In this document: in pieces, positions 40,943-63,219 of the stretch
Position numbering within the stretch: the first letter of the stretch is position 1
Layout: the number at the start of each line of letters is the position of its first letter
IMG/VR virus record: IMGVR_UViG_3300047469_000197
Coordinates: 31,131 to 95,130 of that record
Reading direction: 5' to 3' (one strand)
Source: a virus
DNA: 64,000 bases
The notes under the pieces: generated by a model
Told to the model about the DNA's origin: nothing
Databases searched by the model: none
What the model saw: the letters and a program-made list of their open reading frames with translations, nothing else
Made by a program: the position numbers and the translations under genes

Positions 40943-43900
40943 TTAGTATTTTGCAACCACTTTGAGAATTTCCTCTTGATCGTATCTGGTAGAGATAAGC
41001 CACCAGCCGCCTGGGAATTCTGAGTCGTCGCGCCACCCACTGAAGAATTTAGCTCCGTACTGGGATTTCAGTTCATCTTTAGCCCGGTACAGCGCCCCCT
41101 CTTTGCCCTGCGGATCGTGCAGGCCGAAACAACCGCCCGCGGCAAAATTTACGCCGCGCTTGCTGCGCACCTGTGTTGTGTTGATGCGCACGACGATCTC
41201 GGAGGTGTCCACCAGCCCAGTAACCACCTCGGCCTTTTCAACCTTGGCGACATCAGCGCTCTTCTCTTGCTCTATCTGCTCAGGGGTAATCTGACCGCGC
41301 GCAAGCTGATACGTTTCTTTCATCGTTTTGCGCTGCTCGTCGCTCAGCTTCAGCAGACGGCTATCAACATCATGCGCAAATGCCATCAGGTTATCCGTGT
41401 TAACCAGCAGCTCAGGCGTTATGGTGGCCGCTGAAGAAAGCCCCAGAATGACCGCAGCGGCACACATGATCACACCCTGCAAACCGCCCTGGCTACTCGC
41501 AAAAATACCCTCAAAGGAACCGTACCCCTCGACCGCATGGAGAACGCCCTTTTCAAAGCTCAGCTCGCCACGTTCAACATGCGTCTTGAACTCCGCATAA
41601 TCATCCTGGGCTCGCTGTGCCTTACCGGCTATCAACATCTGTCGTGCTTCTGAATATGCTTGCGCAATTGCGTCCTGCAGCGCCTTTTCAAAATCAGCGG
41701 TGTTGGTGTATGTCGCATCAATATCGCCGTTCACGAATCGCATACCTTGCAGGCGCGGTACATTGACCGAACCGTCCAAGATGAAGCTGGCTACTGCGCG
41801 GTTGTAGTCAAAGTCATAGGTGTACATCTTGCCGCTCATACGCTTGGCCACCACGGCGTTGATCACATCTGGCCCGGCAATCTCACCCAAACCATTCATT
41901 ACCGTCTGATAGTCCTTACCAAACAGCGCAACGAGGAAGTCTTTTGCGGCGTAGCTGATATTGCGTTTGCGGCGCTCCATGATAGCAATGGTCTGTTTTA
42001 ACTGCTCATCGCTGCGATCGGGATAGACCAGAGATGCGCCATTCTGCTGATACCACTTTGCGTCAACATACATCCCATAACTGCCGAAGCCACTACTTCT
42101 CCGGTTCAGCTCGACCAGATCATACTTGCCATCTTTAATGCACACCGCCTGGGAGTCAGTCAGCATCAACTGGCCCGTGACGATGTAGTGCTTAAACTGA
42201 TCTTTGGTCAGCATGTCATGGATTGATGCCATGCTTACCCCACCCTGGAACTTACTCAGCAACTCCAGCTCTGAGGCTGTCACATCGCTTAGCGCGCCAA
42301 GATAGGCGACCGGAACACCTTTACTTGAACCCGCTACGTTAGTCCCATTCGCCGAAAAGATGCCGCGCATGTCAGCCGTCTGAGCATCAAAATCTAGGCG
42401 GCTAATACGCGCATACGAGATCTTGTTGTTCTTGGAACCGTTGCTGGTGGTATTGAAGTTATAGATCTGGCCGACCTTGAACGCCCTGCCGTCCACAACC
42501 AGAAAGTCTTTGCCGTGGTCGATCACGTCCGGGTCGATATCCAAAATGCCCTCATCGATCGCCTTTTTCACCACTGGACGGAGACGCTTGATCTCCTGCT
42601 CGGCTTTCGCCAGGCGGGCAATTTTACGTTGCTGTTTCACCAGCTGAGAGCGGGCATCCGCATCGAACTTGCTGCGGTCGTTAAGCTCCAGACGCTTGGC
42701 GCGTATCTCAGATTCGGCAATTTTAAACTCATGCTTTGGCCGCCAGTCATTCGGATTGTCGGTCATTTCAGCCTGTGCCTGAGCCTGTTTCTGCAGCAGG
42801 GCTTCAAGCTCGGCACGGGCCTCTTGCAGACCGTCAGCGAAGGAGGTTGCGCGGGATTCCAGCGTAGTGATTTTGTCCTTCTCTGTTGCCAGATCCGCAG
42901 CGCCGGCATGTTGTGCCTTGATGTAGTTCGACAGGTCGACGGCTGCGCGTTTCTTCGCGCGCGCCAGGGCGGCAGCTTTTGCCTCAGCGAGCTGTTGGGC
43001 AATCCGGCGCTCACGTTCTTCCGGATTGGCTGAGAGCAGCAACTGCATTTCAACCATGTTGCCTGCATCGGCGTTAGCCATCTGCGAGGCGTCAGACGTC
43101 AGGATCTCCTTAATCCAGGTGCGCTTGCGCTTCAGTGTCTGAAGGCGGAACTCATCAAATGAGCCCTTGCCGCAGTAATACCAGACGTTCACGCGGTCGT
43201 GAGTTGAACCCACGCGGGCGCCGCGCCCGTTACGCTGATCAATACTGGCTGGCGTCCATGGCAGCGTCAGATGGTGAATGTCCGTTGTGCCTTTGTGCAG
43301 GTTAATGCCTACTTCAGCCTTTTTATTGCAGATGAGGATGCTGGTGCGGCCTTCGTTGTAATCGGCGGCGATTTGCTCCAGCCCGCCCAAACTCACCTCA
43401 TTGATGGCAGCGACATACTCATCATAGGCGGCTTTCTGGGTGTTATAGTTCAGTACCTGGTCTTCAGTCGGATCGTCCGGCAGGTCTTTAGGCGGCTTCA
43501 CCTTTTTAGGCTTCTTGCCCTTTTTACCTGCATCAGCAACGGTTGTTGCGTTCAGGATCCCAATCATTGACGGGTCAATGCCCAGCTGCGTGGCGAGAAT
43601 CCGCTTTAACTTGCCGTGCTGGCTTTTCTCATCGGTGAAGATGATCTGTTTGCCGCGCTTTAATCCCTCTTTCAGGCGCTCCACCAACGCTGAGTATTTC
43701 GGCGTTAGAGGGTGAGACATATCCTTTTCCTGAAGGCCGAACTTCGCCAGGCGCTTCATCACTTCCTGTTCAAACACCTCTGGCACTACCAGTGTGGTAA
43801 ACGCGCCAGTGTCTTTGACGCTGAACTGACCTTCTGCGCCATAGCTGTCTTCATCTTCACTGTCTGCGTTGATGGCACCGGGAAGATCGGCCACCAGCTG

Positions 43901-46900
43901 GCGGATGTTTTCGGCCTGCTCTGCCGGGAAACGGAAGGTTATTTGACGGTGATACAGATCCATATCCGTACAAACTCGGTCCATGTCACGGATGATCGCA
44001 AAGATGGAATCTGGCGGTATCAGATTGCCGTCATCATCCTTTGTGATTTTGTCAGTCTGGCCAGCTGAAAGCTTCTCCGCACGCTCGCGCAGCTCTTCAT
44101 ATTTTTCCGCCTGCTCCGTCGACATTGGCGCTTCTGCGGTATTTTCTTCCAGCTCCGGTATTTTTACCTCCTGAGCCACGTCCGCGGAGGTTTTCAGAGT
44201 CGTCCAGCGGTGGAAAATACCGCGCAAGCCATCAAGGTTTTTGAACCCTACCAGCCCCTGCTTCTGCTCAACTTCCCCCGACAATTTGATAACACTGCAC
44301 ATCTCAGTGAGGCCAAACTCTTTAACGAAATCGTCCGGGGTGTAGATACCCATACGCTGCCAGTCGGAATAGCTCACGCAGTGGGAAAGCATGTTAAAGG
44401 CATCAATCGGGCTGTTTACCACTGGCGTTGCGGTCAGCAATACCGGTCCACGCCCATTGTTTTTCGACATCAGATAGGCGTTTTTCACCGCCATATCTCG
44501 CGCTGATTGCGCAACCTGCGGGGATGGGAGATATGCCAGTTGTGTGGCTTCACGGCCAGCACTGTAGCTGTTGCGGTAGTTGTGGCCCTCATCAGCGATC
44601 ACACTGTCAAAATGCATGTCTTCAAAATACGGGTAATCGTGTTGTTTCTCAGTGCCGGTATCTGAGTGCTCCGTTAACAGGCGGTCTTTTTTCTTCTGCT
44701 CGCGGTATGAGTCAGTACCGATTTTCACGCGCCCTGCGTCGGCCTGAGCAAACAGAATATCCTGTGCGTGATCGCGGACCGTCTCGGCACGCAATGGGAT
44801 CCCTGAATACTGCTCTTTGGTCATGACCACCAGGCGCGTATTACTGTGCGGGATCTGGTTCATGCGGGCTTTAACAGTGTCAGAGCCCGACAGCGACAGC
44901 GCATCACGCGTCAGCGGCTGGCCATCTCTGCCCATTACCGGGTTGCCGCTGTCATCCAGAACAGGCACCTGCTTAGCGTTACCCTCATCATCCAACTGCA
45001 CATCGAGGCCAACAAACAGGATGTTGCTGAACACCTGCGGCGAATAGAACGATTTGGCTTCGTGATACCAGTTTTCATAAACCGCTTTCGGCACGACGAT
45101 CGCGGTGCGGGTGCTGCGTCCGTTTTCGAAGTTGTACGCCTCCAGCGCCAGCGCCGTAGTTGTCTTACCCAGTCCAGTTCCAAAGCCCAGGATGCCGCGC
45201 CCGTCTTCTGAGAGACGGCGAACTTCCTGATTCTGGTAGCTGAAGGGTACCCGCTCACCACTTATGCCCGTGAGGTTCAGGCTGGCATCAGACTGTTCAA
45301 ACGGGATGTAAGCATTGAACGCGTTGTTGTACTGCTCAGCGAGCGCGTCGATCTCATCATGCTGGCGGATCCAATCGTTAAAACCAGATTCCAGATCTTT
45401 AATTTTCTCCAGATACGACTCCGCATTAATACCAATCGGCTTGCCACCATTGAGGTATTTTTCCAGCTGCGGCAGGAATGGGTCGCTGTTTGACTTGCGG
45501 GCATAGGTCGGCACCGTGGCGCCGGTGCTGTCCTTTTTCAACACGGTGCCGTATCGGTATCCGGCAAACACCCCGTTGGTGCCCTGGTAGCCCTGTTCAG
45601 AGACGAGCGCCCCATTCTCGACTTCGATTTCTTTGACATACGTCAGCTCGTCGTAGCCATTTTCTTTCAGGTATTCCAGTAGCAAGGAACGGTCAAACCA
45701 GCGCGAGTTGAGCGAAAACGTAATGTCGTCAATACCAGTCCACTTGCGGCGCGCATTGATCTGCTCCAGCTGTCGCAGATAATTATCTTTTTGCGGGCCT
45801 TCACCAATAACCCCCAGAACACCCTTAATCCCGGCACTCATGACGCCAATATCACCGCTGGTGGCGCGGTCCATAGGCATCAAATCGCCATTGGCTGTGA
45901 GGGCGATCCCGTCCGTGCTGGCGAGCATATCCAACAGCTGATCATCACTTTCTGGCAGCGTTGCGGCGGATGTTTTGCGGAACTCTTCCAGGGTGATCGG
46001 CACCAGGTCGATCTGATTAAACAGATGGCGGATAACCTGCTCATGGTTGGTGGCGTCATAAGCTGGTCCGGTCTGCGTTTCGAGCTTGCCCTGGAGAAAG
46101 TCAGACAGCTGGCCATCGGTCGTAATGGCCGCGCGGAACTTCAGCCAGTTGCCGCTGCTGTTGCCAGAAACCTTGCTCACACGGCCTTGGTTCGGGTTGC
46201 CGAACCGCTGTAGCTCACCTTCCACCAGCCGCGCTACGCTTTGGCGCATGGTATCCACGTCAACCGCAGGAAGATGGCTGGCGGCGGCGTCCTGCAGCAC
46301 ACCGATCTGAGCACCAATGATCGCACCACGGAAAACGCGTTCACGCTGGGCAACGGACACGCCCTGTGCAAACTGAAATGCTTTGCGGGTTGGCTCATCA
46401 ATGCTGTTCGGGTAATCCTGCATCAGCGCCTGCATATGATCCCACTGGCGCGCCAGCAGGGATTCAGGATTGCGCATCACCACTTTGAGCTCGTCCAGAT
46501 TACTAATGCCATAGCGTGCCGGATCTATAGCCTGCGGCTGGCCGGAAACATCAAGCACCCACTCACCCGCGGTGAACACGCGCCACTGACCGTTAATCTC
46601 GCGTTGCTCGCCTTCCTCTGCCTTCATGGTCTGCGGTTGCTGGATGCTCAGCATGTCCCAGTTGATGCGGCTATCGAACTTCTGCGCCAGTTTTTCTTTG
46701 ATAGCAGCAGGCGTGATCTGGTCGTTTCGGATGATGATGCGGCCTTGGAAACCTTTCTCGGTTTCGCCGTATACGAACCGCCTTCCGTCCTGTTCAAACC
46801 ATTTGCCGGCGATGAACTCTGGCCATAACACGTTAGCCTCCGTCAGCAGCGTTTCATCTGCCTGCGCAATCAGATCGGCCAGTGCTTCCGGGTGCTTCTG

Positions 46901-47734
46901 CAATACCCAGACGTCAACGGCAGTCGACGTGCCGTTTTCTTCAAAGGTGCCGGATGGCAGGCGGTGCGCGCCCAGGAACTCGGCTTTACGTGATACCTGC
47001 TGGCGCAGTTTCTTCATGCGACTGCCGCTGGTCATGCCGTATGGCACAACAATGCAGGCGATGCCGCCAGGGCGGATTTTGTCGAGTAGACGGAGAATGA
47101 AGTAACGGCCTATGTCTTTTTCTTTGGTGTACGCCTTATCGAGGTTGATCGTATCCCCGCGTGCGTCCCCAAACGGCACGTTCCCAACACAGTGATCAAA
47201 GCTGTTGTCTGCAGTACCCGCTGCGAGCGTTTCGAAAGGCGCAACTTTCACGTCGTCTTCCGGGTGGAGCAGCTGGTTAATGCGTCCTGAGATCGAGCTG
47301 ATTTCTGTTGCCGTCATGATGGTTCCGCGCGGCTTGGTTTCGTTGAATACCCCGGCGCCAGCGGATGGCTCCAGTGTGTTGCCTACGTCAGCGTTGTGGA
47401 GCTTCATGATCTGCCACATCCCTTCTGCAACATACTGCGGTGTGTAGTACTCATGAGTTGAACCGCCGATCCCCCCCTCACCGGTATAGCCCGCCAGAGT
47501 CTGGCGCTGCTCATCGTTCAGCTGCGCCCCATCAGGCAGGCTATTCAGTAATTCCAGTGCCTTGCGGTTAGCTTCCTTCCGCGCGCGCTCTACAGACACG
47601 CCGCTTTGCTTGGTGATCCCAAACACCACTGGCTTACGTATCACCCGTGCCAGCGCCTGAATGAAGCGAACGATCTCACCCACTGAATTGCAGGCAAGTA
47701 TCGCCTTGCTGAACGCCTCTTTGTCGTCGGCCAT
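40943..47734 (-). CDS. darB: DarB: giant methyltransferase-helicase anti-restriction protein
   Basis: 2263 aa from ATG 47734 (MADDKEAFS), with GGAGG 5-6 bases upstream; P1 DarB is about 2255 aa. DarB is packaged in the virion and protects injected DNA from type I restriction. The N-terminal adenine methyltransferase has motif I EPSAGAGVF (~residue 130) and catalytic NVPFG (~190). A central superfamily-2 helicase has Walker A FGTGLGKTT (~890), the DEGH box IADEGHNYRN and LLTATPVVNSPIDAFNML. The helicase C-lobe QRNGRGARVGSTHDRV is near 1500. A long coiled coil follows (~1560-1680). The gene order ulx-like, darB, portal, protease agrees with P1. Confidence 0.95.
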   Translation of the reverse strand: MADDKEAFSKAILACNSVGEIVRFIQALARVIRKPVVFGITKQSGVSVERARKEANRKALELLNSLPDGAQLNDEQRQTLAGYTGEGGIGGSTHEYYTPQYVAEGMWQIMKLHNADVGNTLEPSAGAGVFNETKPRGTIMTATEISSISGRINQLLHPEDDVKVAPFETLAAGTADNSFDHCVGNVPFGDARGDTINLDKAYTKEKDIGRYFILRLLDKIRPGGIACIVVPYGMTSGSRMKKLRQQVSRKAEFLGAHRLPSGTFEENGTSTAVDVWVLQKHPEALADLIAQADETLLTEANVLWPEFIAGKWFEQDGRRFVYGETEKGFQGRIIIRNDQITPAAIKEKLAQKFDSRINWDMLSIQQPQTMKAEEGEQREINGQWRVFTAGEWVLDVSGQPQAIDPARYGISNLDELKVVMRNPESLLARQWDHMQALMQDYPNSIDEPTRKAFQFAQGVSVAQRERVFRGAIIGAQIGVLQDAAASHLPAVDVDTMRQSVARLVEGELQRFGNPNQGRVSKVSGNSSGNWLKFRAAITTDGQLSDFLQGKLETQTGPAYDATNHEQVIRHLFNQIDLVPITLEEFRKTSAATLPESDDQLLDMLASTDGIALTANGDLMPMDRATSGDIGVMSAGIKGVLGVIGEGPQKDNYLRQLEQINARRKWTGIDDITFSLNSRWFDRSLLLEYLKENGYDELTYVKEIEVENGALVSEQGYQGTNGVFAGYRYGTVLKKDSTGATVPTYARKSNSDPFLPQLEKYLNGGKPIGINAESYLEKIKDLESGFNDWIRQHDEIDALAEQYNNAFNAYIPFEQSDASLNLTGISGERVPFSYQNQEVRRLSEDGRGILGFGTGLGKTTTALALEAYNFENGRSTRTAIVVPKAVYENWYHEAKSFYSPQVFSNILFVGLDVQLDDEGNAKQVPVLDDSGNPVMGRDGQPLTRDALSLSGSDTVKARMNQIPHSNTRLVVMTKEQYSGIPLRAETVRDHAQDILFAQADAGRVKIGTDSYREQKKKDRLLTEHSDTGTEKQHDYPYFEDMHFDSVIADEGHNYRNSYSAGREATQLAYLPSPQVAQSARDMAVKNAYLMSKNNGRGPVLLTATPVVNSPIDAFNMLSHCVSYSDWQRMGIYTPDDFVKEFGLTEMCSVIKLSGEVEQKQGLVGFKNLDGLRGIFHRWTTLKTSADVAQEVKIPELEENTAEAPMSTEQAEKYEELRERAEKLSAGQTDKITKDDDGNLIPPDSIFAIIRDMDRVCTDMDLYHRQITFRFPAEQAENIRQLVADLPGAINADSEDEDSYGAEGQFSVKDTGAFTTLVVPEVFEQEVMKRLAKFGLQEKDMSHPLTPKYSALVERLKEGLKRGKQIIFTDEKSQHGKLKRILATQLGIDPSMIGILNATTVADAGKKGKKPKKVKPPKDLPDDPTEDQVLNYNTQKAAYDEYVAAINEVSLGGLEQIAADYNEGRTSILICNKKAEVGINLHKGTTDIHHLTLPWTPASIDQRNGRGARVGSTHDRVNVWYYCGKGSFDEFRLQTLKRKRTWIKEILTSDASQMANADAGNMVEMQLLLSANPEERERRIAQQLAEAKAAALARAKKRAAVDLSNYIKAQHAGAADLATEKDKITTLESRATSFADGLQEARAELEALLQKQAQAQAEMTDNPNDWRPKHEFKIAESEIRAKRLELNDRSKFDADARSQLVKQQRKIARLAKAEQEIKRLRPVVKKAIDEGILDIDPDVIDHGKDFLVVDGRAFKVGQIYNFNTTSNGSKNNKISYARISRLDFDAQTADMRGIFSANGTNVAGSSKGVPVAYLGALSDVTASELELLSKFQGGVSMASIHDMLTKDQFKHYIVTGQLMLTDSQAVCIKDGKYDLVELNRRSSGFGSYGMYVDAKWYQQNGASLVYPDRSDEQLKQTIAIMERRKRNISYAAKDFLVALFGKDYQTVMNGLGEIAGPDVINAVVAKRMSGKMYTYDFDYNRAVASFILDGSVNVPRLQGMRFVNGDIDATYTNTADFEKALQDAIAQAYSEARQMLIAGKAQRAQDDYAEFKTHVERGELSFEKGVLHAVEGYGSFEGIFASSQGGLQGVIMCAAAVILGLSSAATITPELLVNTDNLMAFAHDVDSRLLKLSDEQRKTMKETYQLARGQITPEQIEQEKSADVAKVEKAEVVTGLVDTSEIVVRINTTQVRSKRGVNFAAGGCFGLHDPQGKEGALYRAKDELKSQYGAKFFSGWRDDSEFPGGWWLISTRYDQEEILKVVAKY

Positions 47735-47765
47735 CGTCACCTCCAAAGTGAACATTTGATAAATT

Positions 47766-47784
47766 GACATAGGATACTAAATTT
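47766..47784 (-). promoter_or_regulatory. Operator-like TTAGTAT motif, copy 14
   Basis: Plus-strand reading GACATAGGATACTAAATTT, in the divergent promoter region between darB and the portal gene; overlaps a TTGACA box. Confidence 0.7.
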
Positions 47785-49544: not shown

Positions 49545-50585
49545 ATGGAACATAAAGTTTTAGCTACTCATACCGACCGTTTTTCTCTTTACCGCAAGGT
49601 GCGTAAGGGCAAACAGAACAACCGCAATTACATGTTAGAAGCGGTCAAATCGATGATCGAACACCCGGAGACGATTGAAGGCCTCCGCCTGGGTGAGCTG
49701 TACGGCTACTACGGCCATTCTCGCCGTCAGCTGGCTGGCAAAATGGAACTACCTGAAACCGCTGTTGTGATGGTTGAAGGCAAACCAGTGGTGTTGGATA
49801 ACATTCCGGCCTGCCGTACCACTGCTATTAGCGTGGATGCTGATGGCGTTGTCACTCACACACAGGAAATTCTGGACACGCCGACCGGGCGCATTGTCGC
49901 GGGCATGCTGGAATCGCGTGCTGGTGGCTGGTCATGGGTAACGACTGGCCGCGACTCGCAGCAAATTTCTATTCCTAAAAACCTGTACGGCTTCGACTAC
50001 GTTCTCAATCCGAATTTCATCAGCAAAGATCACCCGGCGGCGATGTTCGAAAGCAACGACGATCGCAATACCGCCATGACGGAATCCATGACCGGACAAG
50101 GCTTCGGTGATGAATCAGTAACCGCAATTATTGAACACGCGGACAAGCTGGCTCAGCACGAAGCAATGTTTGAGAGCGCCATGCGTCTGGAAGAGCTGGA
50201 AGAGGCGATGCTGGAAGCGACCGGTCAGCTGCTGGCACAAGAGGCACAGTTAGCCGAGCAGGCGGTAGCCAACGCGGCGCTGCAGGAAGAGAAAGCTATG
50301 TTCGAGAGCGCGACCGATGCGCGGGCGGCCAAAATGGCCATCGTACTGGACAAGCTCCCGGTGTTTACTAACACTGCGCAACGCGCCGCCCTGGCAAGCA
50401 TGCAGACCGATGATGATGTTGCGATTGTCAGCGCGCTGTTTGAATCAGTTGCCCGCCTAGAAGTCGCCACCCTTCCGCTGGATGTCATCGTGGAGAGTGC
50501 GGCCAAGCAGCCGAGCAAACCGTCCAAACCATCCATGCAATCTTTTGTGTCTTTCCAGGATGAAGCGCCTCGTTTCGGTGCTTAA
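49545..50585 (+). CDS. pro: Head-processing protease/scaffold (P1 Pro-like)
   Basis: 346 aa, 7 bp after the portal gene. The N-terminal part (LRLGELYGYYGHSRRQLAGK) has a histidine block like those of prohead proteases, and the CRTTAISVDADGVVTHTQEI sheet follows. The C-terminal 150 residues are a helical, Ala/Glu-rich scaffold-like region. In P1, Pro matures head proteins and the Dar proteins. A clear catalytic serine was not placed, so the call depends on context. Confidence 0.7.
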   Translation: MEHKVLATHTDRFSLYRKVRKGKQNNRNYMLEAVKSMIEHPETIEGLRLGELYGYYGHSRRQLAGKMELPETAVVMVEGKPVVLDNIPACRTTAISVDADGVVTHTQEILDTPTGRIVAGMLESRAGGWSWVTTGRDSQQISIPKNLYGFDYVLNPNFISKDHPAAMFESNDDRNTAMTESMTGQGFGDESVTAIIEHADKLAQHEAMFESAMRLEELEEAMLEATGQLLAQEAQLAEQAVANAALQEEKAMFESATDARAAKMAIVLDKLPVFTNTAQRAALASMQTDDDVAIVSALFESVARLEVATLPLDVIVESAAKQPSKPSKPSMQSFVSFQDEAPRFGA

Positions 50586-50645: not shown

Positions 50646-50755
50646 TTGATCCTTTTCACGATCCACGTTTAAACTCCCCCCGCAACACTATTCAACGAAT
50701 ACGTTTTAACTCACTTCAAGGCGTCCTCTGGGCGCCTTCTCTTATGGAGATTGTG

Positions 50756-50998
50756 TTGGAAAACCAGCATCGCCTTATCAAGAAGTATCGCGAGCTCAGC
50801 CAGGCCGAGATTGACCTTATGAACGAATCGGAGGAGTTGGAGCAGATCGTTCTCGACTTCATCAACCGCGTGAAAAAGGTTAATGCCGATCAGGTTGTGG
50901 AAATAGATATGCGCTGGCTCAGCATTGGCCTGACGAACATCGAGCAGGGCTTTATGGCCGTCTCACGCTCTATCGCAAAACCAGGCAACGCAGAATAA
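50756..50998 (+). CDS. acb2: Acb2-like cyclic-oligonucleotide sponge (anti-CBASS)
   Basis: 80 aa. Acb2/Tad1-hairpin proteins form hexamers that trap cyclic di- and trinucleotide signals and so blind CBASS and some Thoeris defences. The family pattern is clear: ENQHRLIKKYRELSQAEIDL, then MNESEEL, a second helix, then RWLSIGLTNIEQGFMAVSRS and IAKP. I chose TTG 50756 because GGAGA lies 5 bases upstream and homologues start MENQH; an ATG at 50744 is the alternative. It precedes repL in one operon, so it should be made early in lytic growth. Confidence 0.85.
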   Translation: MENQHRLIKKYRELSQAEIDLMNESEELEQIVLDFINRVKKVNADQVVEIDMRWLSIGLTNIEQGFMAVSRSIAKPGNAE

Positions 50999-53489: not shown

Positions 53490-53773
53490 AAATATGTGTC
53501 ACAACATGCATTCATTGCTGGCCGATGTTCACCCCGCGCAAAACATGTGTCACAGCATGCAATCCAATGGGAAATATGTGTCGCAACATGCTCAAGTGCA
53601 TGCTGGCACACAGGTTTGCTTAAAAAACTCCCGGCAAAGGTTAAATCCTGCCCTACCATGCATGAGTTAACACATCTTTTCATACCAAAAGCATGTTCAA
53701 ACACATGTTTTATACCGCTACACCATGCCAGAACACATATTTAGTTTGTGATGCATATCACGACACATATTTT
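53490..53773. repeat. Distal iteron array downstream of rep
   Basis: About eight copies of a degenerate ~20-bp unit, best form AAATATGTGTCACAACATGC. Three point one way (53490, 53541, 53572) and about five the other (53597, 53661, 53691, 53723, 53753). This two-orientation array at the 3' end of rep is typical of RepFIB-type copy-control iterons. Confidence 0.75.
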
Positions 53774-54636
53774 CAATCTAACGCTTTGAGTTTCTTGTTT
53801 CTTTTGTGAATGATGACATAGTTTTCCTGCCCTTTTTTGGTCACGGAATACTCAATATACTGAATGTCAGCCATAGCTTTAAGGGCTGCTTTAATGAGCC
53901 GATTCTGTTCAAAAACAGCAGACGTCAGCAACAGGCGCTCTCGTATCCTGGTGAAGGAGATAGGCGCAGGATTATCAGGAAGGCTGGCGATGTAGGTATA
54001 CAGAGTTTGCGCGACCTCCTTCCCTTTGAGCTCATTGTAAGGGTGCTTACGCAATAAGATCGTATAGTCGATTTTATATAGCTCCCAAAGCCTTTCATCA
54101 GCCTCAAGCGTCACTGAATCATCGCTACGGTCCATGATGGCTGTTTTAAGCAATTGGGTGAAAAACATTTTGTCGCCATCTTTGCGTTTAAACTGCACAA
54201 CCTTCGTACCCAGCTTTGCCAACGAGTCGAAGATCTGGTTTCTCAAACGATGGTTTATCTGCCGGGACTCATAACAACAAAGGTGAGCAAACTCTTTGAA
54301 AGGGAGTGTGATCTTGTTCGTAGACAGGCCGTGCTTACTGAATGCACCAATAACCCCCATCCAGACGCTGAAATCAGTTGTGATGTTAAGGCGCTCACCG
54401 CGTATCTGAATGTCGTCGTACCCTTCCTTCCGGGCAAAGCCAAGTGAGGAAAATGGTGCTGAAACATCAATGATATGCTCTGAGCCCTTTTTGATAGAGC
54501 GGCTATTCGGGACGAATACGCCTAATCGCAAGAGTATGGCCGGTTGGATCGATGAGTTCTGAGTAACTGTTAATTGCTTGTGGGCTTCATCACCCTCAAT
54601 AATCAACGAATCATTAAAGAAAACCTTTTCGCTCAA
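53773..54636 (-). CDS. repA: RepFIB-like plasmid replication initiator
   Basis: 287 aa from a TTG at 54636 with GAGGG 6 bases upstream; the frame is open to 54708 but would run into an iteron. Family blocks: PAILLRLGVFVPNSRSIKKG, GYDDIQIRGERLNITTDF, VWMGVIGAFSKHGLSTNKIT, LWELYKIDYTILLRKHPYNE, EVAQTLYTYIASLPDNPAPI and a final wing IEYSVTKKGQENYVIIHKRN. These are the two winged-helix domains that bind iterons. Flanked by iterons on both sides. P1 uses a different RepA lineage. Confidence 0.88.
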   Translation of the reverse strand: MSEKVFFNDSLIIEGDEAHKQLTVTQNSSIQPAILLRLGVFVPNSRSIKKGSEHIIDVSAPFSSLGFARKEGYDDIQIRGERLNITTDFSVWMGVIGAFSKHGLSTNKITLPFKEFAHLCCYESRQINHRLRNQIFDSLAKLGTKVVQFKRKDGDKMFFTQLLKTAIMDRSDDSVTLEADERLWELYKIDYTILLRKHPYNELKGKEVAQTLYTYIASLPDNPAPISFTRIRERLLLTSAVFEQNRLIKAALKAMADIQYIEYSVTKKGQENYVIIHKRNKKLKALD

Positions 54637-54690
54637 TGTATTACCCTCAATAGTCACCCACGATCCCGCCTTGTGGATGAAAATATGCGT

Positions 54691-54800
54691 TTGCATGTTA
54701 TGACACATGTTTAAGCATGTTATGACACATAAATATCATGCTGTCACACATGTTTTGCATGCTGTGACACATGTTTTACATGTTATGACACATGCAAAAG
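54691..54800. repeat. Proximal iteron array at origin
   Basis: Five direct repeats of a 21-22 bp unit (best GCATGTTATGACACATGTTT). Their CATG starts are at 54694, 54716, 54737, 54758 and 54779, i.e. two helical turns apart. They lie directly upstream of rep, where initiator binding would both fire the origin and repress rep. Confidence 0.85.
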
Positions 54801-54837
54801 CTCTGAGAGGCGCACCAGCTCTGGGCTGCGAGCCAGG

Positions 54838-55459: not shown

Positions 55460-55523
55460 AGCCCACCTCAGATGTAACTTTCAATAGAATCAGGGGTGAA
55501 CATCTGTAGAATTTTTTGCATGT

Positions 55524-55550
55524 AAAGGACTCTCCGGAGTCCTTTTTCTT
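55524..55550 (+). terminator. Hairpin with T run, plus direction
   Basis: AAAGGACTC/GAGTCCTTT with TCCG loop and TTTTTCTTT behind it, in the divergent region before the 108-aa gene; may act as an attenuator. Confidence 0.6.
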
Positions 55551-55665
55551 TGGCAATATTATCCGAAGTTGCATTTGCCAATGTCGAAATCCATTGCACA
55601 GCTTTTTGCACGCGTTTACTGTAATTACGCAAAAAAAACAGCAGCATATAAAAAGGGATCTGACA

Positions 55666-55992
55666 TTGAAAAAGACACTCGCGGCACTTCTTGGCGTGGC
55701 CCTCTCATTCACAGCTACCGCACAAACCGCAGCAAGCTTCCTGGAAGGCTCTCACTTGGTAGCAAAGAACACTAATGGCGCATCGGCTATCATCATGATT
55801 CAAGCGTGCCAGGCGAACCGTAAGGGCATTTCTGCATATGACTTCGCTCAGGCTGCTTATAAGCATTACAAGCCTTACGGATGGTCAAAGGCGCAATTTG
55901 ACCGCCTGATAGATCCCGCTTATGACTTCTCAGAACAGGCTAAGGGATCGGATTGTGACCAGCTGGCCATAAACCTGATTGAAGGGCTTTAA
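55666..55992 (+). CDS. Secreted/periplasmic protein of unknown function
   Basis: 108 aa from TTG 55666 (MKKTLAALLGVALSFTATAQ), with AAGGGA upstream. Signal peptide with probable cleavage at TATAQ/TAAS. The mature part has two cysteines (IQACQANRKG, GSDCDQLA) that may form a disulphide. The larger ATG frame from 55516 passes through a hairpin and is not credible. Lies beside the endolysin; a lysis or host-exclusion role is only a guess. Confidence 0.65.
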   Translation: MKKTLAALLGVALSFTATAQTAASFLEGSHLVAKNTNGASAIIMIQACQANRKGISAYDFAQAAYKHYKPYGWSKAQFDRLIDPAYDFSEQAKGSDCDQLAINLIEGL

Positions 55993-56031: not shown

Positions 56032-56357
56032 GACTGTTCGCCTTGCGCGAAACGTTCATCGGTATCCTGCTCAATCGCCGCCAGCTCATCCTGCCAGTCC
56101 TGCGGCACACCGCTAACCTCAATCGAATAGATTTTCATAACGTTCAGCACCTCATAAGGTGCACACACGTTATTCTTCAGAGGGTAGATCCCCTGAGCAG
56201 CGCCCTCTGCGGTTAGGGTAATGTTCCAGAAAAGCACCTGAATATCCTGCAGCGAGAAATCCCCGGCCACCGTCATTTCGCACGGCTCTGTCACTTCATC
56301 ACCCGCAAAGGCAATCGTGCCACGCTGTTCGCCTTTACTTAGTTGAACGGTTATCAC
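56028..56357 (-). CDS. Hypothetical protein, last gene of Dar operon
   Basis: 109 aa from GTG 56357, whose GTGA overlaps the upstream stop; the in-frame codon at 56387 is less likely. Beta-rich (ITVQLSKGEQRGTIAFAGDE, VLFWNITLTAEGAAQ), acidic tail. It may be a small structural or internal head protein, judged by its operon. Confidence 0.6.
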   Translation of the reverse strand: MITVQLSKGEQRGTIAFAGDEVTEPCEMTVAGDFSLQDIQVLFWNITLTAEGAAQGIYPLKNNVCAPYEVLNVMKIYSIEVSGVPQDWQDELAAIEQDTDERFAQGEQS

Positions 56358-57970
56358 AATCCATGCACTCCCTTCAGGAAACCACAAACGAGCTGGAGCA
56401 GCTGGTCATCATTGAGCAACGACACCGCGCCCGCTTCACTGTTAGCAAGATACTCAAATGCTGATGAGAAAACTTCAGTCGCATAGGCTGCGTGAGTATC
56501 CCGTGAGTTTTTTGCAGCATACACCTTACCAACATACGGTGACGAGAGGGCGTCAGTGATACCGACCTCATCATCAGAATAGTTGCTGTAGTAAAACTTA
56601 TTTAGTGGCCTGATGGCCGTTCTGTCACCGCCAGCACGGCCTGTAAGATAGGATGTAGCCATTTTCAGCGCATCAGGATTGCTGTATTCAAAGTGATGCC
56701 CCACTTCATGCCACAATACTTTTTTGCCCCCGCGCGGGTTAAGCGCAATGACTTTCTTGGCCTGATGCGCAAATGACCGGCCACGATTAAGATCGATTGC
56801 TTTAAGGGTCTTGAGTTGCCCACCAGCCAGCTTGTAGACGGCTTTAAGATCATCAATAAATGCCCCGTCCCGCCCCTCGCGCTCGTTATATTCATTCATC
56901 AGTTTTTTGCTGATCTTAATCCCGCTCACCCACTCTGCGGCATCAGCATCACTCACTACGTCCGTGCTGAGCAGCTTCTCACGCATTTCATCAATAATCG
57001 GCGCGACTTTGCTGATTGGTGTGGCGATAAAATCTTTGAGCCATGAAGCAGCGCCTTTGCTGGTGATGTTGTTTTGCAGATAGTTCTGACAGCCGTTGAG
57101 CTCTGCCGCACTACCAAAACCGAACCGCCCATTAATCAGCGCATCAACAACTTTTTCATGGTTGCTGCCGAACTGCGTTTTTACGTTCAACCATTCCAGT
57201 GAGTCCGCATTAGCCACATCCAGCGTTTGAACCACCAGCTGCTTGGCTTCAGCCATCGCGGCTGAAACGGGAGTGGTCAACCCCTCAAGCATTGCCGCGC
57301 CATCGTGCTGCATCGGAGCGAGTTTCTGTCCCGCTTGTTCCTGCGTTAGGGTCGCTGCATTTACGCGATCGTCGCTGGTGGCCATCATCATAAAAATATT
57401 GGCGGCAGAGTTATTAAGCAGGTCGCCAGCGCGGTTTAGGATCATCATCACAACACCGCCTTTCAAGGATCCATCAGCTTCCTGAATGGACTTGACGATA
57501 GCCGATATTACGCGGGCGGCTGCATCGCGATCCTCAACCGTTTTAGCATCACGCCATGCCTGTATTGCAGGCCGAATGCGGAACAGATCACCGGACACGA
57601 ATATGAACTTCCAGGCACGTTCTGTGCCGAGATATACCCAGCTGAGGTTCAGCAACTTCGCTGCAGACACCGCGAAATCCATGAACATCATGGATGAGTT
57701 CATAAACATATTTTGTTTGGCTGACTTCAGGGTTTTCCCCATCAATGCGGTTGTCATGGCGGTGAAGGCCAGGATTTCCGTTTCACTGGGCTCAGCCTGC
57801 TGTAACAGTTTGCTGAGCTTGCTAAATATAAATCGCTCATCCCCGCCAATTGGCCCATCGCCCCAGAATCCGCCGATCGCTTCAGCGACTTCGCCGGCCG
57901 ACTGGCATCCGCCAATGATCGCCTTGGTTATCTTATTCGTTTTAGGCGCTTTGAGAGTCGTTTTAAGCAT
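56354..57970 (-). CDS. Dar-operon protein with HExxH metalloprotease motif
   Basis: 538 aa, starting MLKTTLKAPKTNKITK; AAAGAG upstream. Residues 1-350 are helical. The C-terminal part contains KKVLWHEVGHHFEYSNPDAL, with H421-E-V-G-H425, the gluzincin/metzincin-type zinc signature, preceded by VIALNPRGGK. It sits in the position of P1 darA/hdf, next to Ddr-like genes. If injected with DNA it could cleave a host defence protein or mature internal head proteins. The motif is seen directly; the role is inference. Confidence 0.75.
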   Translation of the reverse strand: MLKTTLKAPKTNKITKAIIGGCQSAGEVAEAIGGFWGDGPIGGDERFIFSKLSKLLQQAEPSETEILAFTAMTTALMGKTLKSAKQNMFMNSSMMFMDFAVSAAKLLNLSWVYLGTERAWKFIFVSGDLFRIRPAIQAWRDAKTVEDRDAAARVISAIVKSIQEADGSLKGGVVMMILNRAGDLLNNSAANIFMMMATSDDRVNAATLTQEQAGQKLAPMQHDGAAMLEGLTTPVSAAMAEAKQLVVQTLDVANADSLEWLNVKTQFGSNHEKVVDALINGRFGFGSAAELNGCQNYLQNNITSKGAASWLKDFIATPISKVAPIIDEMREKLLSTDVVSDADAAEWVSGIKISKKLMNEYNEREGRDGAFIDDLKAVYKLAGGQLKTLKAIDLNRGRSFAHQAKKVIALNPRGGKKVLWHEVGHHFEYSNPDALKMATSYLTGRAGGDRTAIRPLNKFYYSNYSDDEVGITDALSSPYVGKVYAAKNSRDTHAAYATEVFSSAFEYLANSEAGAVSLLNDDQLLQLVCGFLKGVHGL

Positions 57971-58021: not shown

Positions 58022-58393
58022 TCAGGCTGCTACAGCCGCCCTGTCGTTAACCCAAGTGATGGCTCCTGCTTTAACGTCATCCAGCGTCAGGTAAATTCCC
58101 ACATACTGATCCAGCGTGTTCAGCGTTGTGACAAACTCACTATCCTGTTGCGTGGTGAATTTACCCGCCAGGAAATCAGTAACGATTTCTGGCTGAACAT
58201 CAGCGGGTTTTGGAGGCTCAGGGTCAGCTGGTGGCGGCGAGACAGCCGCAGCGCCATAGCCGAGCTTGACCAATACCTCATCCACTTTGTCGCCAATATC
58301 GAGTAGGTCCAGCCCTTTGGCGGTTTTAGCCTGCTCCAGCAGGCTATCCAGTTCATCGCTCAGATCGAGCCGTTCTAATGCGGTTAAAGCCAT
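58022..58393 (-). CDS. Dar-operon protein (DdrA-like)
   Basis: 123 aa. Helical N-terminus (LERLDLSDELDSLLEQAKTA), a Pro-rich linker (VSPPPADPEPPKPADV) and a compact C-terminal domain (DFLAGKFTTQQDSEFVTTLN). Its start overlaps the stop of the 1118-aa gene. Size and place resemble the small Ddr protein of P1. Confidence 0.6.
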   Translation of the reverse strand: MALTALERLDLSDELDSLLEQAKTAKGLDLLDIGDKVDEVLVKLGYGAAAVSPPPADPEPPKPADVQPEIVTDFLAGKFTTQQDSEFVTTLNTLDQYVGIYLTLDDVKAGAITWVNDRAAVAA

Positions 58394-61300
58394 TAAGCTG
58401 CACCCCGCGCCACTGCGGCCAGCAGATCAGAGAGTTTCTGCGCCGCTGCATTCACCAAGTCTTCGTTTTCCTCGTAAACACCTGCGTCCGTCAGGGCCGT
58501 GATGGCCGCGCGCACGTTACCGCGGGCGGTGCGGATTTCGATCATGTCGCCTGAATTCATCTGCGCCACCTCCTTTAGATAGTCGATAGCCTTCTGTGCG
58601 GCGCTGTCGGCTTCGGTCTTCGGCGGTTCAGGGTCGGTTACTGGCGGTGGTGTTGTCACAGGTGCGGCTTCTTTAAGCGTTGGGAACGGTGATCCAAAGT
58701 CAATTGCTGACTTCACCCGCGATATGTTTTCCTGGCTGGCGCTCACAGCCAGTTTGTCCGCCATTTCCATCAGCTCGTCGTTGCTGATGTGCTGGCCGTC
58801 TGCCCAGTTTGAGATCGAATCAACACTATGACCGGTGAAGCTGGCCAGCAGCGCTGCAGCTTTGCCGAATGTATCCATCTCATTATCCGGGGTGACGTCT
58901 GGCACGGGGACCGGGTCTGGGATTGGCGCAGGTTTGGCCGGAGTGTCATCAATCGCCTTGAAGGTTTCGCCGCTCAGGTGGATCGAGGTGACTCCCAGCC
59001 CTTTAGCCTTAATCAGTTCAAGGTCCGCAGGGGTTGCGCTGTACTTAAGCGAAAGGTGCGGCAGATACTCAGGGTATGAATGCGCCCCGCCCGCAGCGGT
59101 GAGCTCATCAAAGCGCTTCTTGAGGTCTGCGCTATCCAGAATTGCCACTAACGCCTCATTTGGCGCATTGCCAATGATCTTGTATTCGCCGGTCAACCGT
59201 GCCAAATAGGTGCGGCCTGGCTCTGGCTGGATGAAGATCGAATGATCTTTGGAGTACATGAGGGTTACGTGCAGCTTCTCAGGAGTGATGCCGCCATTAA
59301 TCCCCAGAGCGCTGACCTGATCTGCAACCGCTCCAGCCTCAGCTACTGTTGGCTTAACGCTTACATAGCCATTGTTCCCACCTTCTGTGGGTGCCGGGAT
59401 AGCCGGTGCTACAGGTGGGGTCGGTGCATCATCGGTTTTACCATTAACCCAGCGCTCCTTGAGATCCTTCCAGTCGCCCATGAATACCGATTTGTCGCCG
59501 CGGTCGACGCCAAAGGCAACGCTGATTTCGCCCTCATGTTTTCCATCTTCTTCGACGTCCGCAGAATCGTAGTCCTTCGACAGCTCCTTATCAGCCCAGC
59601 GAATGAAGTCCTCCGGGCCTTCGATCCACATCATTAGCCGACCATCGCGCGGTAGCCCCTCGCCTTTGGTCTGCTCAAATGCGCGCGCAACAAGACTGCG
59701 CTTGGAAGGTTTGACGGGTGGAGTCTGTTCGACTGGCGGCACAGCAGCTGGCGGGGCAAATTTCGCGGCACCCTTCCCGGTAAGGATCTCATCATCCTTG
59801 CGTAGAACGTAGATGTACTGGAGGCCAGAGATTTTAAAGCGCTGCATACCGAACCCAGCAGCCATAGCGGCTTTCACCATCTGATAGCGCGATTCTGCAA
59901 ACTCCGGGTTACTGGTCGCGGACTGGCCATTAATTTTGAACTTCGCGGCGGCAACGATATCGTTGAGCGTGGATTGCGTGTACCAAATCGGGTTATCTCC
60001 GCTGGTGGCACCTTTTGCGATCGTCGGCATCGCCGCGCCCGTCTGGATACTTTCCAGTGGAACAGTGTCGCCGTCTGAGAGCTGCACGCCGCTGTTATCG
60101 TCTGGCTTGGGTGTGTCATCAACTGGTGCCGGTGGCGGAGCCGGGTTGTCTTTCTTGACCTGCTTGAAAAATTCCATGTAGCGAAGAGAGGCTTTGCTGC
60201 CCATATTCTGGCGAATCGTCTGGAAGCCACCAGCATCTTTCATGCTCTGCGGAAGCTTATCCGCCTTTGGCGCGTCATCGGCGAGATAGTCCAGGTAAAA
60301 CGCATTTTCATTGCCAGGGTAAGCCTGAATCAGCGGGATCAAATCGTTTAGCAAGGCGTTGAAACTAGAAGTCGTCTGCTTCTTCTGGAAATCCACCAGC
60401 TCAAACTGCGCAACGTCACCCGCATCGAGCGGAGAAGCGTAGGCAACAGCACCGTTACGATAGTCAGACGGGTCGAAATCTTTCGCTTTCACGATCGGTA
60501 GCTCTGCTGCTTCTTCAACTGTTGCGATAACAGCAGGCTTCGGCTCCTGCGGCAAAGCGCCGGGGCCAGCCGGACGTGCGCGCAAGCCATACCAATACAG
60601 TGATCTCGGACCGGGATCGTTAGACGGCGGCGGTACAGAATTACGGGCCTTCAGCGCCGGGATATCGCTCAGGTCAGACACCTGCCCTTTGTACATGATG
60701 AGGTCTTTCAGGTCGGACACGTCGACCGTGTCGAGACGGCTGGCAAGGTCAGTCAGATCGCCAGTCGGGATGTTCTGGTTATAAGCCCAGTTAGCCACAT
60801 AGGTGTCTTTGTAACCGGATTTAGCCTGGATGGAGGTCAGGGCATCGGCACGCGCTTTACGATCGGCCATCTGTGCCGCTGCAGCGTCATCTTTTTTCTG
60901 TTGGGCGGCGGCGAGCTGGCTTTGCAGTTCAATGTTGAGCTCGTCCTGCTTGTCGGCCTTGTTGGTCAGATCCGAAAGCGTTTGTGAGTCCGCCTGAATC
61001 GAAGCATTCATCTGGTCGCCCTGCTCTACCAATGAAGCCTGTTGCTCTTCCAGCTTATCGCCGGCTTCTTGCATCGTAGCGATCTCGGCTTTGATAGCGT
61101 TCTGCTTTGCCTGCGCATGCTGGAATTTAGCGGTGTTTCGCTCAATGAGGTTAGACAGAGCAGTCGTAACCACTTTCAGCGAAATATCGCGCCCATTGGA
61201 CGGGGAAACCACGTGCGTGACGTCTTTTTTGTTCAGCAGGAACTGGAACGCTACCAGTGTGTCGGTTGCGGTGATGCTGCTGGCATTCCCGGTAGGGCTA

Positions 61301-61749
61301 TGGAAAACCAGCGTAACGGTCTGGCCATCAGACAGCGGGATAATCGCAGGCATAACAGCGAGCCCCTGAACCTTACGGACGCGACCAATGTTGGCGCCAC
61401 CCATCGCCTGGCTACCATCATCAGACTCTCCGGACGTGTCATTTCCAGCGGTGATGCCTGAACCGTTCAGAGACTGGTTTAGTGCCCGGATAAAGGCACG
61501 CATGCTGCCGGACAGTCGGGCGCGCGTGCTGGTGATGGCTTCGAACATCTGCGCGTTCTGTTCAATGAGGACCGGCACGTCGTAGAAATACGTCGACTCG
61601 ATGTCTGCCATGTTCACGGCTTCCACCATGAAATGCTCCCCTTCGCCCTGGTACAGTTCGTTAAAGAACGTATCGGGGATCATGATTGCCGGGATGTCCT
61701 GACGGTTTTGCAACAACATCCCTTTGCTGAGGTTGATATCACGCAGCAT
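58393..61749 (-). CDS. ddrB: Large DdrB-like virion/anti-defence protein with 2H phosphoesterase domain
   Basis: 1118 aa; GGAGAG upstream. An N-terminal DarA_N-like module (~1-190; VTLVFHSPTGNASSITATDT) is followed by a coiled coil (~200-300). Two repeats of a WA-x-x-Q-x-I motif lie near 325 and 1000. An IEGP-DWK module is at ~704-755. A 2H phosphoesterase domain is at ~790-925 with both H-x-T/S motifs, H827-V-T829 and H898-L-S900. 2H enzymes cleave cyclic phosphodiesters or 2'-5' linkages, and phage Acb1 of this fold destroys CBASS signals. Pro-rich linkers suggest separately folded, injected domains. The DdrB name is from position and size. Confidence 0.75.
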   Translation of the reverse strand: MLRDINLSKGMLLQNRQDIPAIMIPDTFFNELYQGEGEHFMVEAVNMADIESTYFYDVPVLIEQNAQMFEAITSTRARLSGSMRAFIRALNQSLNGSGITAGNDTSGESDDGSQAMGGANIGRVRKVQGLAVMPAIIPLSDGQTVTLVFHSPTGNASSITATDTLVAFQFLLNKKDVTHVVSPSNGRDISLKVVTTALSNLIERNTAKFQHAQAKQNAIKAEIATMQEAGDKLEEQQASLVEQGDQMNASIQADSQTLSDLTNKADKQDELNIELQSQLAAAQQKKDDAAAAQMADRKARADALTSIQAKSGYKDTYVANWAYNQNIPTGDLTDLASRLDTVDVSDLKDLIMYKGQVSDLSDIPALKARNSVPPPSNDPGPRSLYWYGLRARPAGPGALPQEPKPAVIATVEEAAELPIVKAKDFDPSDYRNGAVAYASPLDAGDVAQFELVDFQKKQTTSSFNALLNDLIPLIQAYPGNENAFYLDYLADDAPKADKLPQSMKDAGGFQTIRQNMGSKASLRYMEFFKQVKKDNPAPPPAPVDDTPKPDDNSGVQLSDGDTVPLESIQTGAAMPTIAKGATSGDNPIWYTQSTLNDIVAAAKFKINGQSATSNPEFAESRYQMVKAAMAAGFGMQRFKISGLQYIYVLRKDDEILTGKGAAKFAPPAAVPPVEQTPPVKPSKRSLVARAFEQTKGEGLPRDGRLMMWIEGPEDFIRWADKELSKDYDSADVEEDGKHEGEISVAFGVDRGDKSVFMGDWKDLKERWVNGKTDDAPTPPVAPAIPAPTEGGNNGYVSVKPTVAEAGAVADQVSALGINGGITPEKLHVTLMYSKDHSIFIQPEPGRTYLARLTGEYKIIGNAPNEALVAILDSADLKKRFDELTAAGGAHSYPEYLPHLSLKYSATPADLELIKAKGLGVTSIHLSGETFKAIDDTPAKPAPIPDPVPVPDVTPDNEMDTFGKAAALLASFTGHSVDSISNWADGQHISNDELMEMADKLAVSASQENISRVKSAIDFGSPFPTLKEAAPVTTPPPVTDPEPPKTEADSAAQKAIDYLKEVAQMNSGDMIEIRTARGNVRAAITALTDAGVYEENEDLVNAAAQKLSDLLAAVARGAA

Positions 61750-62374
61750 TTTGGCTCTCCATCGTTTTGATTTTGTCTTGCAGCTGGGCGGTCAATGCTT
61801 GCGCGGTGGCATAGCGCGTCTGTGCGGCTGCAATGCGTTGCTGAATGTTTGAGGATTGTGCCGTGTACTTTGCAACTTCATCCGAAATGGCCTTGGTACT
61901 GGTGGCCAGCTGGTCACGGCGATCTCTGGCTTCCTTCAGGCGCTGTACGTTGGATTTAACAGCCGCTCGGTTGTCGGAGGTGTCAATCACGCGCTTCGCC
62001 TTTCTCGCCAGACCATCCGTGAACTTTTGCGAGTTCTGCTTAACGATGGTGCTGAGCGAGTCGGCCACTTTAGCGAGCGTGTCGGCATGCTGGACGGGAA
62101 TGGATCTGCCATTGAGCTTAAAGCTCGCCAGGTCGCCGGAGTCGTTAACGGCGATCTTCACTTCCTGCTGATCCTGGAAGCGAAGAACAGCGGTTTTTAC
62201 CTTGATGCCGTTAGAGTTCGTCGGGCGATTGCTGGCATCAACGTTCTCGACCGTCAGGCCAGCTTTCCCCAAGGCATCGATGAAAGGCTTAAGCCCTTTC
62301 TCAGTGACCTGGTTGAAGTCCAGTAAGGCATACTGATTACCGTTAGATGAATGGAGGCCGGGAGTTTTAATCAT
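61739..62374 (-). CDS. DarA_N-like Dar-operon protein
   Basis: 211 aa from ATG 62374 (MIKTPGLHSSNGNQYA). Residues ~25-110 (GIKVKTAVLRFQDQQEVKIA, VNDSGDLASFKLNGRSIPVQ) parallel the start of the 1118-aa protein: a sheet taking 'F-x-D-x-Q-x-V', then a helix ending in I-x-x-N-(T/S)-x-K-F. The C-terminal half is a coiled coil (NVQRLKEARDRRDQLATSTK). Overlaps both neighbours. The frame is open upstream but overlaps lydB. Confidence 0.65.
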   Translation of the reverse strand: MIKTPGLHSSNGNQYALLDFNQVTEKGLKPFIDALGKAGLTVENVDASNRPTNSNGIKVKTAVLRFQDQQEVKIAVNDSGDLASFKLNGRSIPVQHADTLAKVADSLSTIVKQNSQKFTDGLARKAKRVIDTSDNRAAVKSNVQRLKEARDRRDQLATSTKAISDEVAKYTAQSSNIQQRIAAAQTRYATAQALTAQLQDKIKTMESQNAA

Positions 62375-62807
62375 GTTGGGAATCCCGTACCAGCTGAATA
62401 TTGAGTTCTTTTTCCACAACCAGCTCCATAGGGAAGATGCGATAAAGTGGGTTGAAGAAAGAGTCACCGTGCACGACTTTGACTCGGACAATCCAGACGC
62501 CGTCCGGACTAACCTTACTGGCGGGAATGTCGAGGTATTCGCAATTCTCACCCGTGCGCGAGTGCTCAAGCGTTCTACGGCCACCCGCAATAACGGTGGT
62601 AGGAAAACGTTTGTCGCGCAGTGAATACTCAATCGTTGCGCCCTTCAGACGGTTAAATTTAACGTTGAAGAAGAACGGAATACGCACATGCTCATTCTCA
62701 ACTTTATGATCGCCGGCACGCAATTTAGTGATGTTCGACCGCGGCAAACAAAAGCGGTCACCAATCATGTAAATTGCAGCGGCTGAAATGATGATCCCAC
62801 CTATCAT
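62367..62807 (-). CDS. lydB: Antiholin LydB-like protein
   Basis: 146 aa, against about 147 in P1 LydB. An N-terminal membrane helix (MIGGIIISAAAIYMIG) precedes a periplasmic-type beta domain (RIPFFFNVKFNRLKGATIEY). GGGGGG lies just before the ATG. In P1, LydB delays LydA-driven lysis. Overlaps lydA by 4 bp. Called from size, topology and order. Confidence 0.75.
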   Translation of the reverse strand: MIGGIIISAAAIYMIGDRFCLPRSNITKLRAGDHKVENEHVRIPFFFNVKFNRLKGATIEYSLRDKRFPTTVIAGGRRTLEHSRTGENCEYLDIPASKVSPDGVWIVRVKVVHGDSFFNPLYRIFPMELVVEKELNIQLVRDSQHD

Positions 62808-63130: not shown

Positions 63131-63219
63131 CTCTTTCCCCTATTGGTTGTCTTTGTCGTTGCCGGGATTTTATGGAAAGTAGCATTTGCGGCGTGAGTGA
63201 TTACGCCGCAGGGAAGGAA

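Follow-up and report, generated by a model that had tools for sequence, protein, structure and literature searches.

A P1-type DarA protein with an Acb1-family 2H phosphoesterase domain may carry an anti-CBASS enzyme into the cell with phage DNA

Known anti-CBASS proteins have mostly been described as made after infection starts. Phages also encode polyvalent proteins, which are multi-domain, virion-packaged conflict proteins; in the consulted parts of the survey by Iyer et al. 2017, DarA-N and 2H are listed among their domains, 2H is found fused to MuF and portal proteins, and it is proposed that such domains might degrade defence nucleotides (PMC5512222). The protein analyzed here resembles this class, and a DarA-2H combination is not mentioned in those parts of the survey (PMC5512222). 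In phage P1, virions contain DarA, Hdf, DdrA, DdrB and DarB as detected by mass spectrometry (PMC9024508), and 55 DarA-Hdf pairs are located on the inner capsid wall of each head (PMC12810830). In P1 DarA, Pro probably removes residues 1-69, and the flexible stretch at residues 383-639 is not resolved (PMC12810830). All Dar proteins are missing from heads emptied of DNA, DarA being ejected together with the DNA (PMC12810830).

We analyzed a window of 64,000 nucleotides, corresponding to bases 31131-95130 of a viral record of 95130 bp. The only gene-sized frame at 58990-59390 is an ORF of 1118 aa, whose main parts outside the cargo are as follows.

58393..61749, minus strand: darA-type gene, carrier of the 2H domain (DarA_N PF18788, PHROG 1926, synteny with P1 darA)
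60850..61749, minus strand: DarA capsid-binding part, aa 1-300, hexon-binding and alpha-helix domains (PDB 9ukm match; roles taken from P1)
58396..58617, minus strand: conserved DarA C-terminal tail, aa 1045-1118 (alignment)

Residues 68-206 of this protein match DarA_N (PF18788, E 1.1e-34), and the whole carrier falls into PHROG 1926, the P1 DarA family (E 7e-146), which is annotated as 'released from the phage upon host infection'. In addition, aa 4-281 match PDB 9ukm, the DarA chain whose structure was determined within P1 heads (E 5.5e-70), and a match to DarA_C lies below the threshold (24.8 bits vs 27). As these Pfam and PHROG matches are to DarA and the gene order is that of P1, the carrier is, judged from its sequence and context, DarA. 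The original prediction had called it DdrB-like, which proved to be a slip of naming: DdrB similarity sits in the next gene but one (56354-57970), and DdrB was ruled out as the identity of the carrier. Its placement in the virion, predicted at the same time, agrees with what has been established for P1 DarA, which is internal by mass spectrometry (PMC9024508), lies on the inner capsid wall and is absent from DNA-less heads (PMC12810830).

The window protein shares with P1 DarA (PDB 9ukm) the capsid-binding N-terminus, the C-terminal tail and the position in the operon. P1 DarA, in contrast, has 639 aa and no 2H domain, and window DarA has about 480 aa more cargo. By analogy with P1, aa 1 to about 70 of window DarA are probably cleaved by Pro. 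The penton-binding domain of P1 DarA (P1 residues about 300-382) was not recognisable in window DarA, where this region could not be aligned; its place is taken by a helical segment that is also found in a Citrobacter homologue. The C-terminal tail is common to all full-length homologues aligned, including one of 452 aa, and has a pN/pS of 0.14/0.71 relative to the homologue from Pantoea.

On the minus strand, the genes lydA-lydB-hdf-darA-ddrA-ddrB follow each other in the same order as in P1, and further P1-type functions are located nearby.

63167..63185, minus strand: candidate LPdar-like late promoter, ATGCTACTT-tcca-TAAAAT, upstream of lydA (motif search)
63130-62804, minus strand: small gene in the lydA position (gene order)
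62367..62807, minus strand: lydB homologue, head of the dar operon (PF16084 LydB, E 7e-31)
61739..62632, minus strand: hdf homologue (PHROG 1620 Hdf-like, E 5e-45 at aa 96-295; DarA_N, E 7e-12)
58022..58393, minus strand: ddrA homologue (PHROG 1855 DdrA-like, E 1.5e-35)
56354..57970, minus strand: ddrB-like gene, 538 aa, C-terminal metallopeptidase part of P1 DdrB (PHROG 2299, E 1e-34)
49545..50585, plus strand: homologue of the prohead protease Pro, to which the trimming of P1 DarA is attributed (50% identity to P1 Pro, E 2e-115)
40943..47770, minus strand: DarB-type methylase-helicase, 2275 aa (SNF2 and Eco57I in Pfam; PHROG 1685 over aa 20-2275)

The true start of hdf is probably internal, near aa 95 of the ORF. 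The ddrB-like protein matches residues 787-976 of P1 DdrB (BLASTP E 2e-20), and a metallopeptidase-type segment with an HExxH motif is common to both. The candidate late promoter shares the layout of P1 LPdar (AAGTTACTT-tgca-TACCAT) with two mismatches, and three such late-promoter-like matches were found within the window versus 0.69 expected. A second P1-late-promoter-like site, again with two mismatches, lies at 55472-55490 (+) ahead of a 158-aa frame (55516-55992, +). Moreover, a Rep3-type initiator gene (53773-54708) has iteron-like repeats on both sides, at 53490-53772 and 54690-54801; they number about ten or more (CATGnnnTGACACATgTTT and its complement), and such an arrangement would be expected of a plasmid origin like that of P1.

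The 2H phosphoesterase domain lies in the C-terminal half of this DarA.

58945..59373, minus strand: 2H phosphoesterase domain of the Acb1 family (PF23474), aa 793-935 (Pfam, phmmer, AF2, Foldseek, VIA)
59263..59271, minus strand: first catalytic motif, H827-V-T829, equivalent to T4 Acb1 H44 and T46 (alignment)
59050..59058, minus strand: second catalytic motif, H898-L-S900, equivalent to T4 Acb1 H113 and T115 (alignment)

The two motifs, set 71 residues apart, are exactly where they had been predicted from the sequence. Residues 795-935 match the Acb1 profile PF23474 with an E-value of 3.1e-20 (72.8 bits vs a cut-off of 27), PHROG 755 matches the domain with an E-value of 1.3e-23, and Acb1 in PDB 7t26 matches the carrier in a single-sequence phmmer search (E 1e-6). 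An AF2 model built from 25 sequences has a mean pLDDT of 90.7 and a pTM of 0.83, and strands start at model residues 43 and 113, adjoining H42 and H113. With this model, the top Foldseek matches are all 2H proteins and the five best PDB matches are all Acb1. The predicted Acb1 fold of a full 2H phosphoesterase was also confirmed by VIA: a comparison with the crystal structure of FBB1 Acb1 gave a Z of 16.5 (rmsd 2.1 A over 137 residues), compared with values of 11.6, 11.1 and 11.0 among plant CPDase, human Usb1 and LigT (about 11 for LigT or Usb1), and no more than 11.6 for every non-Acb1 2H protein compared. The domain has the features of the 2H superfamily, namely two HxT/S motifs ~70-80 residues apart on central strands together with the 2H fold, and its profile score above the curated cut-off and its structure, nearer to Acb1 than to LigT, CPDase or Usb1, place it in the Acb1 family. 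The fold and the fusion to DarA are clear. The LigT/2'-5' RNA ligase family was ruled out, with neither a LigT nor a 2_5_RNA_ligase2 Pfam match in the carrier and with lower structural similarity, and identity as a defence-system protein was ruled out, with no PADLOC match.

To compare the active sites, we used the pocket residues of T4 Acb1 as the mapping reference (PMC9117128). The T4 tetrad H44, T46, H113 and T115 corresponds to H827, T829, H898 and S900 in the window, and neither of the two known DarA-2H proteins has lost any of these catalytic positions, the last Thr being Ser as in several other relatives. The base-stacking set of T4-type Acb1 (Y12, W74, F107 and W147) is incomplete: Y12 and F107 correspond to Y795 and Y892 (two of the four aromatics), W74 is replaced by Ile, and the lid residue W147 is absent. 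E141, which explains the adenine requirement of T4 Acb1 (PMC9117128), corresponds to Lys in the window and Glu in Pantoea, at an end where the alignment is less certain; since it is Lys in the window, base preference may differ from that of T4 Acb1. Because W74, E141 and W147 are not kept, we can only infer the substrate, and because the aromatics W74 and W147 are not kept, we do not file DarA-2H as a T4-type Acb1. With T4/FBB1 Acb1 (PF23474, PDB 7t26/7t27), an anti-CBASS nuclease from a family whose members degrade the nucleotides that bacteria use as immune alarms, DarA-2H shares the 2H fold, an HxT/HxT-type tetrad and aromatic residues at the Y12 and F107 positions, with 27% identity over 113 aa. 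However, T4 Acb1 is a free early enzyme, whereas DarA-2H is a domain within a capsid-anchored protein.

The nearest 2H domains in viral contigs (L132-L135, IMG/VR contigs; 49-50% identity) are C-terminal parts of portal proteins, with PF06381 followed by PF23474. The best match in a named phage is the portal of Vibrio phage PP270, and the Pam3 portal (PDB 8hds) has an Acb1-type 2H domain too; a scan with the PP270 portal tail as query gave no matches. Deep nodes of the 2H-domain tree have weak support. In AU tests, a grouping of DarA-2H with T4-type Acb1 was rejected (p 0.002) and its grouping with portal-type domains was not (p 0.49 and 0.28); together with the pocket residues, the former result rules out T4-type Acb1 orthology. 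As its nearest relatives are portal tails, the 2H domain appears to have moved between virion proteins, and the simplest reading of these sequences is that a domain already present in one virion protein was probably transferred to another. The portal-2H proteins likewise have the domain as part of a virion protein; the portal is a fixed vertex component, whereas DarA is an ejected internal protein in P1. No assayed member of the portal-type 2H branch was found in the literature searched. C-terminal 2H domains of the Acb1 type also occur in portal proteins from diverse phages, as at L149:2447-4429 and L136:762-2780; the first of these domains is very divergent and still above the Pfam cut-off.

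Across 88 loci (31 representatives), DarA length ranges from 452 aa to 1038 aa, apart from a few shorter ones that look truncated, and window DarA has 1118 aa. Alignment to shorter relatives shows that window DarA retains the first 300 aa and a C-terminal tail of about 70 aa, and the Citrobacter DarA of 452 aa consists of little beyond these conserved ends. The middle of window DarA is built of Pro-poor blocks (0-11% Pro) between linkers with 24-35% Pro, from whose composition we delimited the modules of the cargo.

59449..59700, minus strand: shuffled cargo module, aa 684-767, 84 aa (BLASTP to Pantoea DarA)
59374..59448, minus strand: Pro-rich linker before the 2H domain, aa 768-792, 24% Pro (composition)
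58867..58938, minus strand: Pro-rich linker after the 2H domain, aa 938-961, 29% Pro (composition)

The same 2H-in-DarA fusion, with 68% identity, occurs in a DarA of 1038 aa encoded by the plasmid NZ_CP034366 of Pantoea sp. CCBC3-3-1, which differs in having a second module after the 2H domain. By BLASTP, residues 666-767 of window DarA match residues 838-937 of Pantoea DarA (46% identity, E 1e-23). The 84-aa module precedes the 2H domain in the former and follows it in the latter, and this changed order points to module shuffling. The module has no Pfam match, and neither it and its surroundings (aa 660-780) nor the preceding module (aa 585-662) had other homes among the viral contigs searched; a single-sequence AF2 model of aa 680-776 has a pLDDT of 43. 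The 2H domain of the Pantoea protein scores 79.9 bits against PF23474. In the 2H part of the two proteins pN is 0.23 and pS 0.78, with synonymous sites saturated; amino-acid changes are thus resisted, which suggests that the domain is kept under selection. Elsewhere in the same DarA, helical segments at about aa 962-1018 (58696-58866, -) and 300-369 (60643-60852, -) resemble each other via the Pantoea and Citrobacter homologues (BLASTP E 3e-5, and alignment), suggesting an internally repeated module.

An Acb2-like sponge had also been predicted in the same genome, and the gene is indeed present.

50744..50998, plus strand: Acb2/Tad1-family sponge gene, 84 aa (PF24729, E 1.4e-13, 51 bits vs a cut-off of 27)

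It lies between pro and the following gene, and the Pantoea plasmid has an Acb2-family gene in the same place. We examined 36 P1-like records, i.e., the record of the window, 12 and 23 others, some of which are fragments. PF23474 is found in only two of them, the window phage and the Pantoea plasmid, in agreement with a plasmid collection, and PF24729 occurs in the same two; neither family was detected in any other of the P1-like records searched, some of them fragments. As the two elements are kin, the co-occurrence of Acb1 and Acb2, though striking, may represent one event.

Taken together, we give a probability of about 0.52 to the reading that a P1-type darA has here acquired, within its variable cargo, a 2H phosphodiesterase of the Acb1 family, which is delivered with the DNA against a cyclic-nucleotide immune signal. 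We infer packaging and ejection of DarA-2H in the window phage from P1. During assembly, the DarA N-terminus and Hdf would bind the inner capsid wall (55 pairs per head in P1), and Pro would trim DarA, with the string of C-terminal cargo modules left to extend into the space that the DNA fills. Upon infection, DarA would exit the head with the DNA, so that tens of copies of the 2H enzyme would be in the cell at time zero. The 2H domain is predicted to be catalytically active and to cleave a cyclic di- or trinucleotide immune signal by HxT/HxS acid-base chemistry, and the separately encoded Acb2-type sponge would capture the remaining signal. The protein would be made late as well, from the dar operon: as a late-promoter-like site lies ahead of lydA, the producing cell should contain plenty of it at late times. 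Several observations count against this explanation: W74, E141 and W147, which stack on or read the bases in T4 Acb1, are not kept; the AU test rejects a grouping with T4-type Acb1, and no assayed member of the portal-type branch was found; the P1 penton-binding domain is not recognisable in window DarA; CBASS signals generally rise late; and the co-occurrence with Acb2 rests on two related elements. A wider proposition, tentative and somewhat short of even odds, is that DarA serves P1-type phage-plasmids as a capsid-anchored carrier of exchangeable cargo, with anti-immune enzymes inserted between its conserved ends; here this would be an Acb1-type nuclease from the portal-fused lineage, injected with the DNA in tens of copies per virion as a virion-delivered anti-CBASS activity alongside a gene-encoded Acb2-type sponge.

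The virion-delivered enzyme might have another 2H chemistry and act on RNA or other nucleotides, either as an RNase or as a phosphodiesterase of the 2'-3' cyclic phosphate or 2'-5' kind. Iyer et al. propose a Usb1-like RNase or 2'-5' oligoadenylate degradation for MuF and portal 2H fusions (PMC5512222); portal fusions are also the closest kin of DarA-2H, and only half of the base-contact residues of Acb1 are kept. We nevertheless regard such a chemistry as rather unlikely, as the structure is nearer to Acb1 than to Usb1 or LigT, Pfam gives Acb1 and not LigT or 2_5_RNA_ligase2, and the genomes concerned also have an Acb2-family gene.

Timing bears on a further possibility, in which the enzyme is an anti-signalling nuclease acting mainly late in the producing cell, its placement in DarA reflecting late-operon expression and its co-delivery with DNA being incidental. 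CBASS is often triggered late and its signals generally rise late in infection, so entry is not obviously the critical time for delivery; moreover, the P1 dar operon is transcribed from LPdar, and the window has the late-promoter-like site ahead of lydA. A free-standing gene would suffice for such a role, however, and fusion to a capsid-anchored, ejected protein together with the portal-2H kinship suggests selection for virion carriage, which makes action mainly in the producing cell quite improbable in our estimate. Least probable of all, and only a slight chance, is a weak or inactive domain that serves nucleic-acid binding or capsid filling only. The wide variation of DarA cargo (452 to 1118 aa) means that many cargo parts may be dispensable, and some pocket residues have been lost, but the catalytic tetrad is intact in both DarA-2H proteins and the replacements between them are mostly synonymous.

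What is new here is the fusion to DarA, the Acb1-type structure, the portal-type kinship, the shuffled cargo and the Acb2 partner. In the non-subscription literature that was searched, neither a DarA-Acb1 fusion nor anti-CBASS activity delivered by virions was described, so an earlier description elsewhere is possible, and no report of the Burkholderia phage BCSR5 enzyme was found. If delivery of DarA-2H with the DNA is true, an Acb1-type enzyme in an ejected head protein would mean counter-immunity supplied at time zero, and the view of DarA would broaden from an antirestriction scaffold to a delivery vehicle. For the 2017 prediction on 2H domains of virion proteins, this P1-like system, with inducible lysogens and deletable genes, offers a concrete case that can be tested, and the portal-type 2H branch becomes a defined target for substrate screening.
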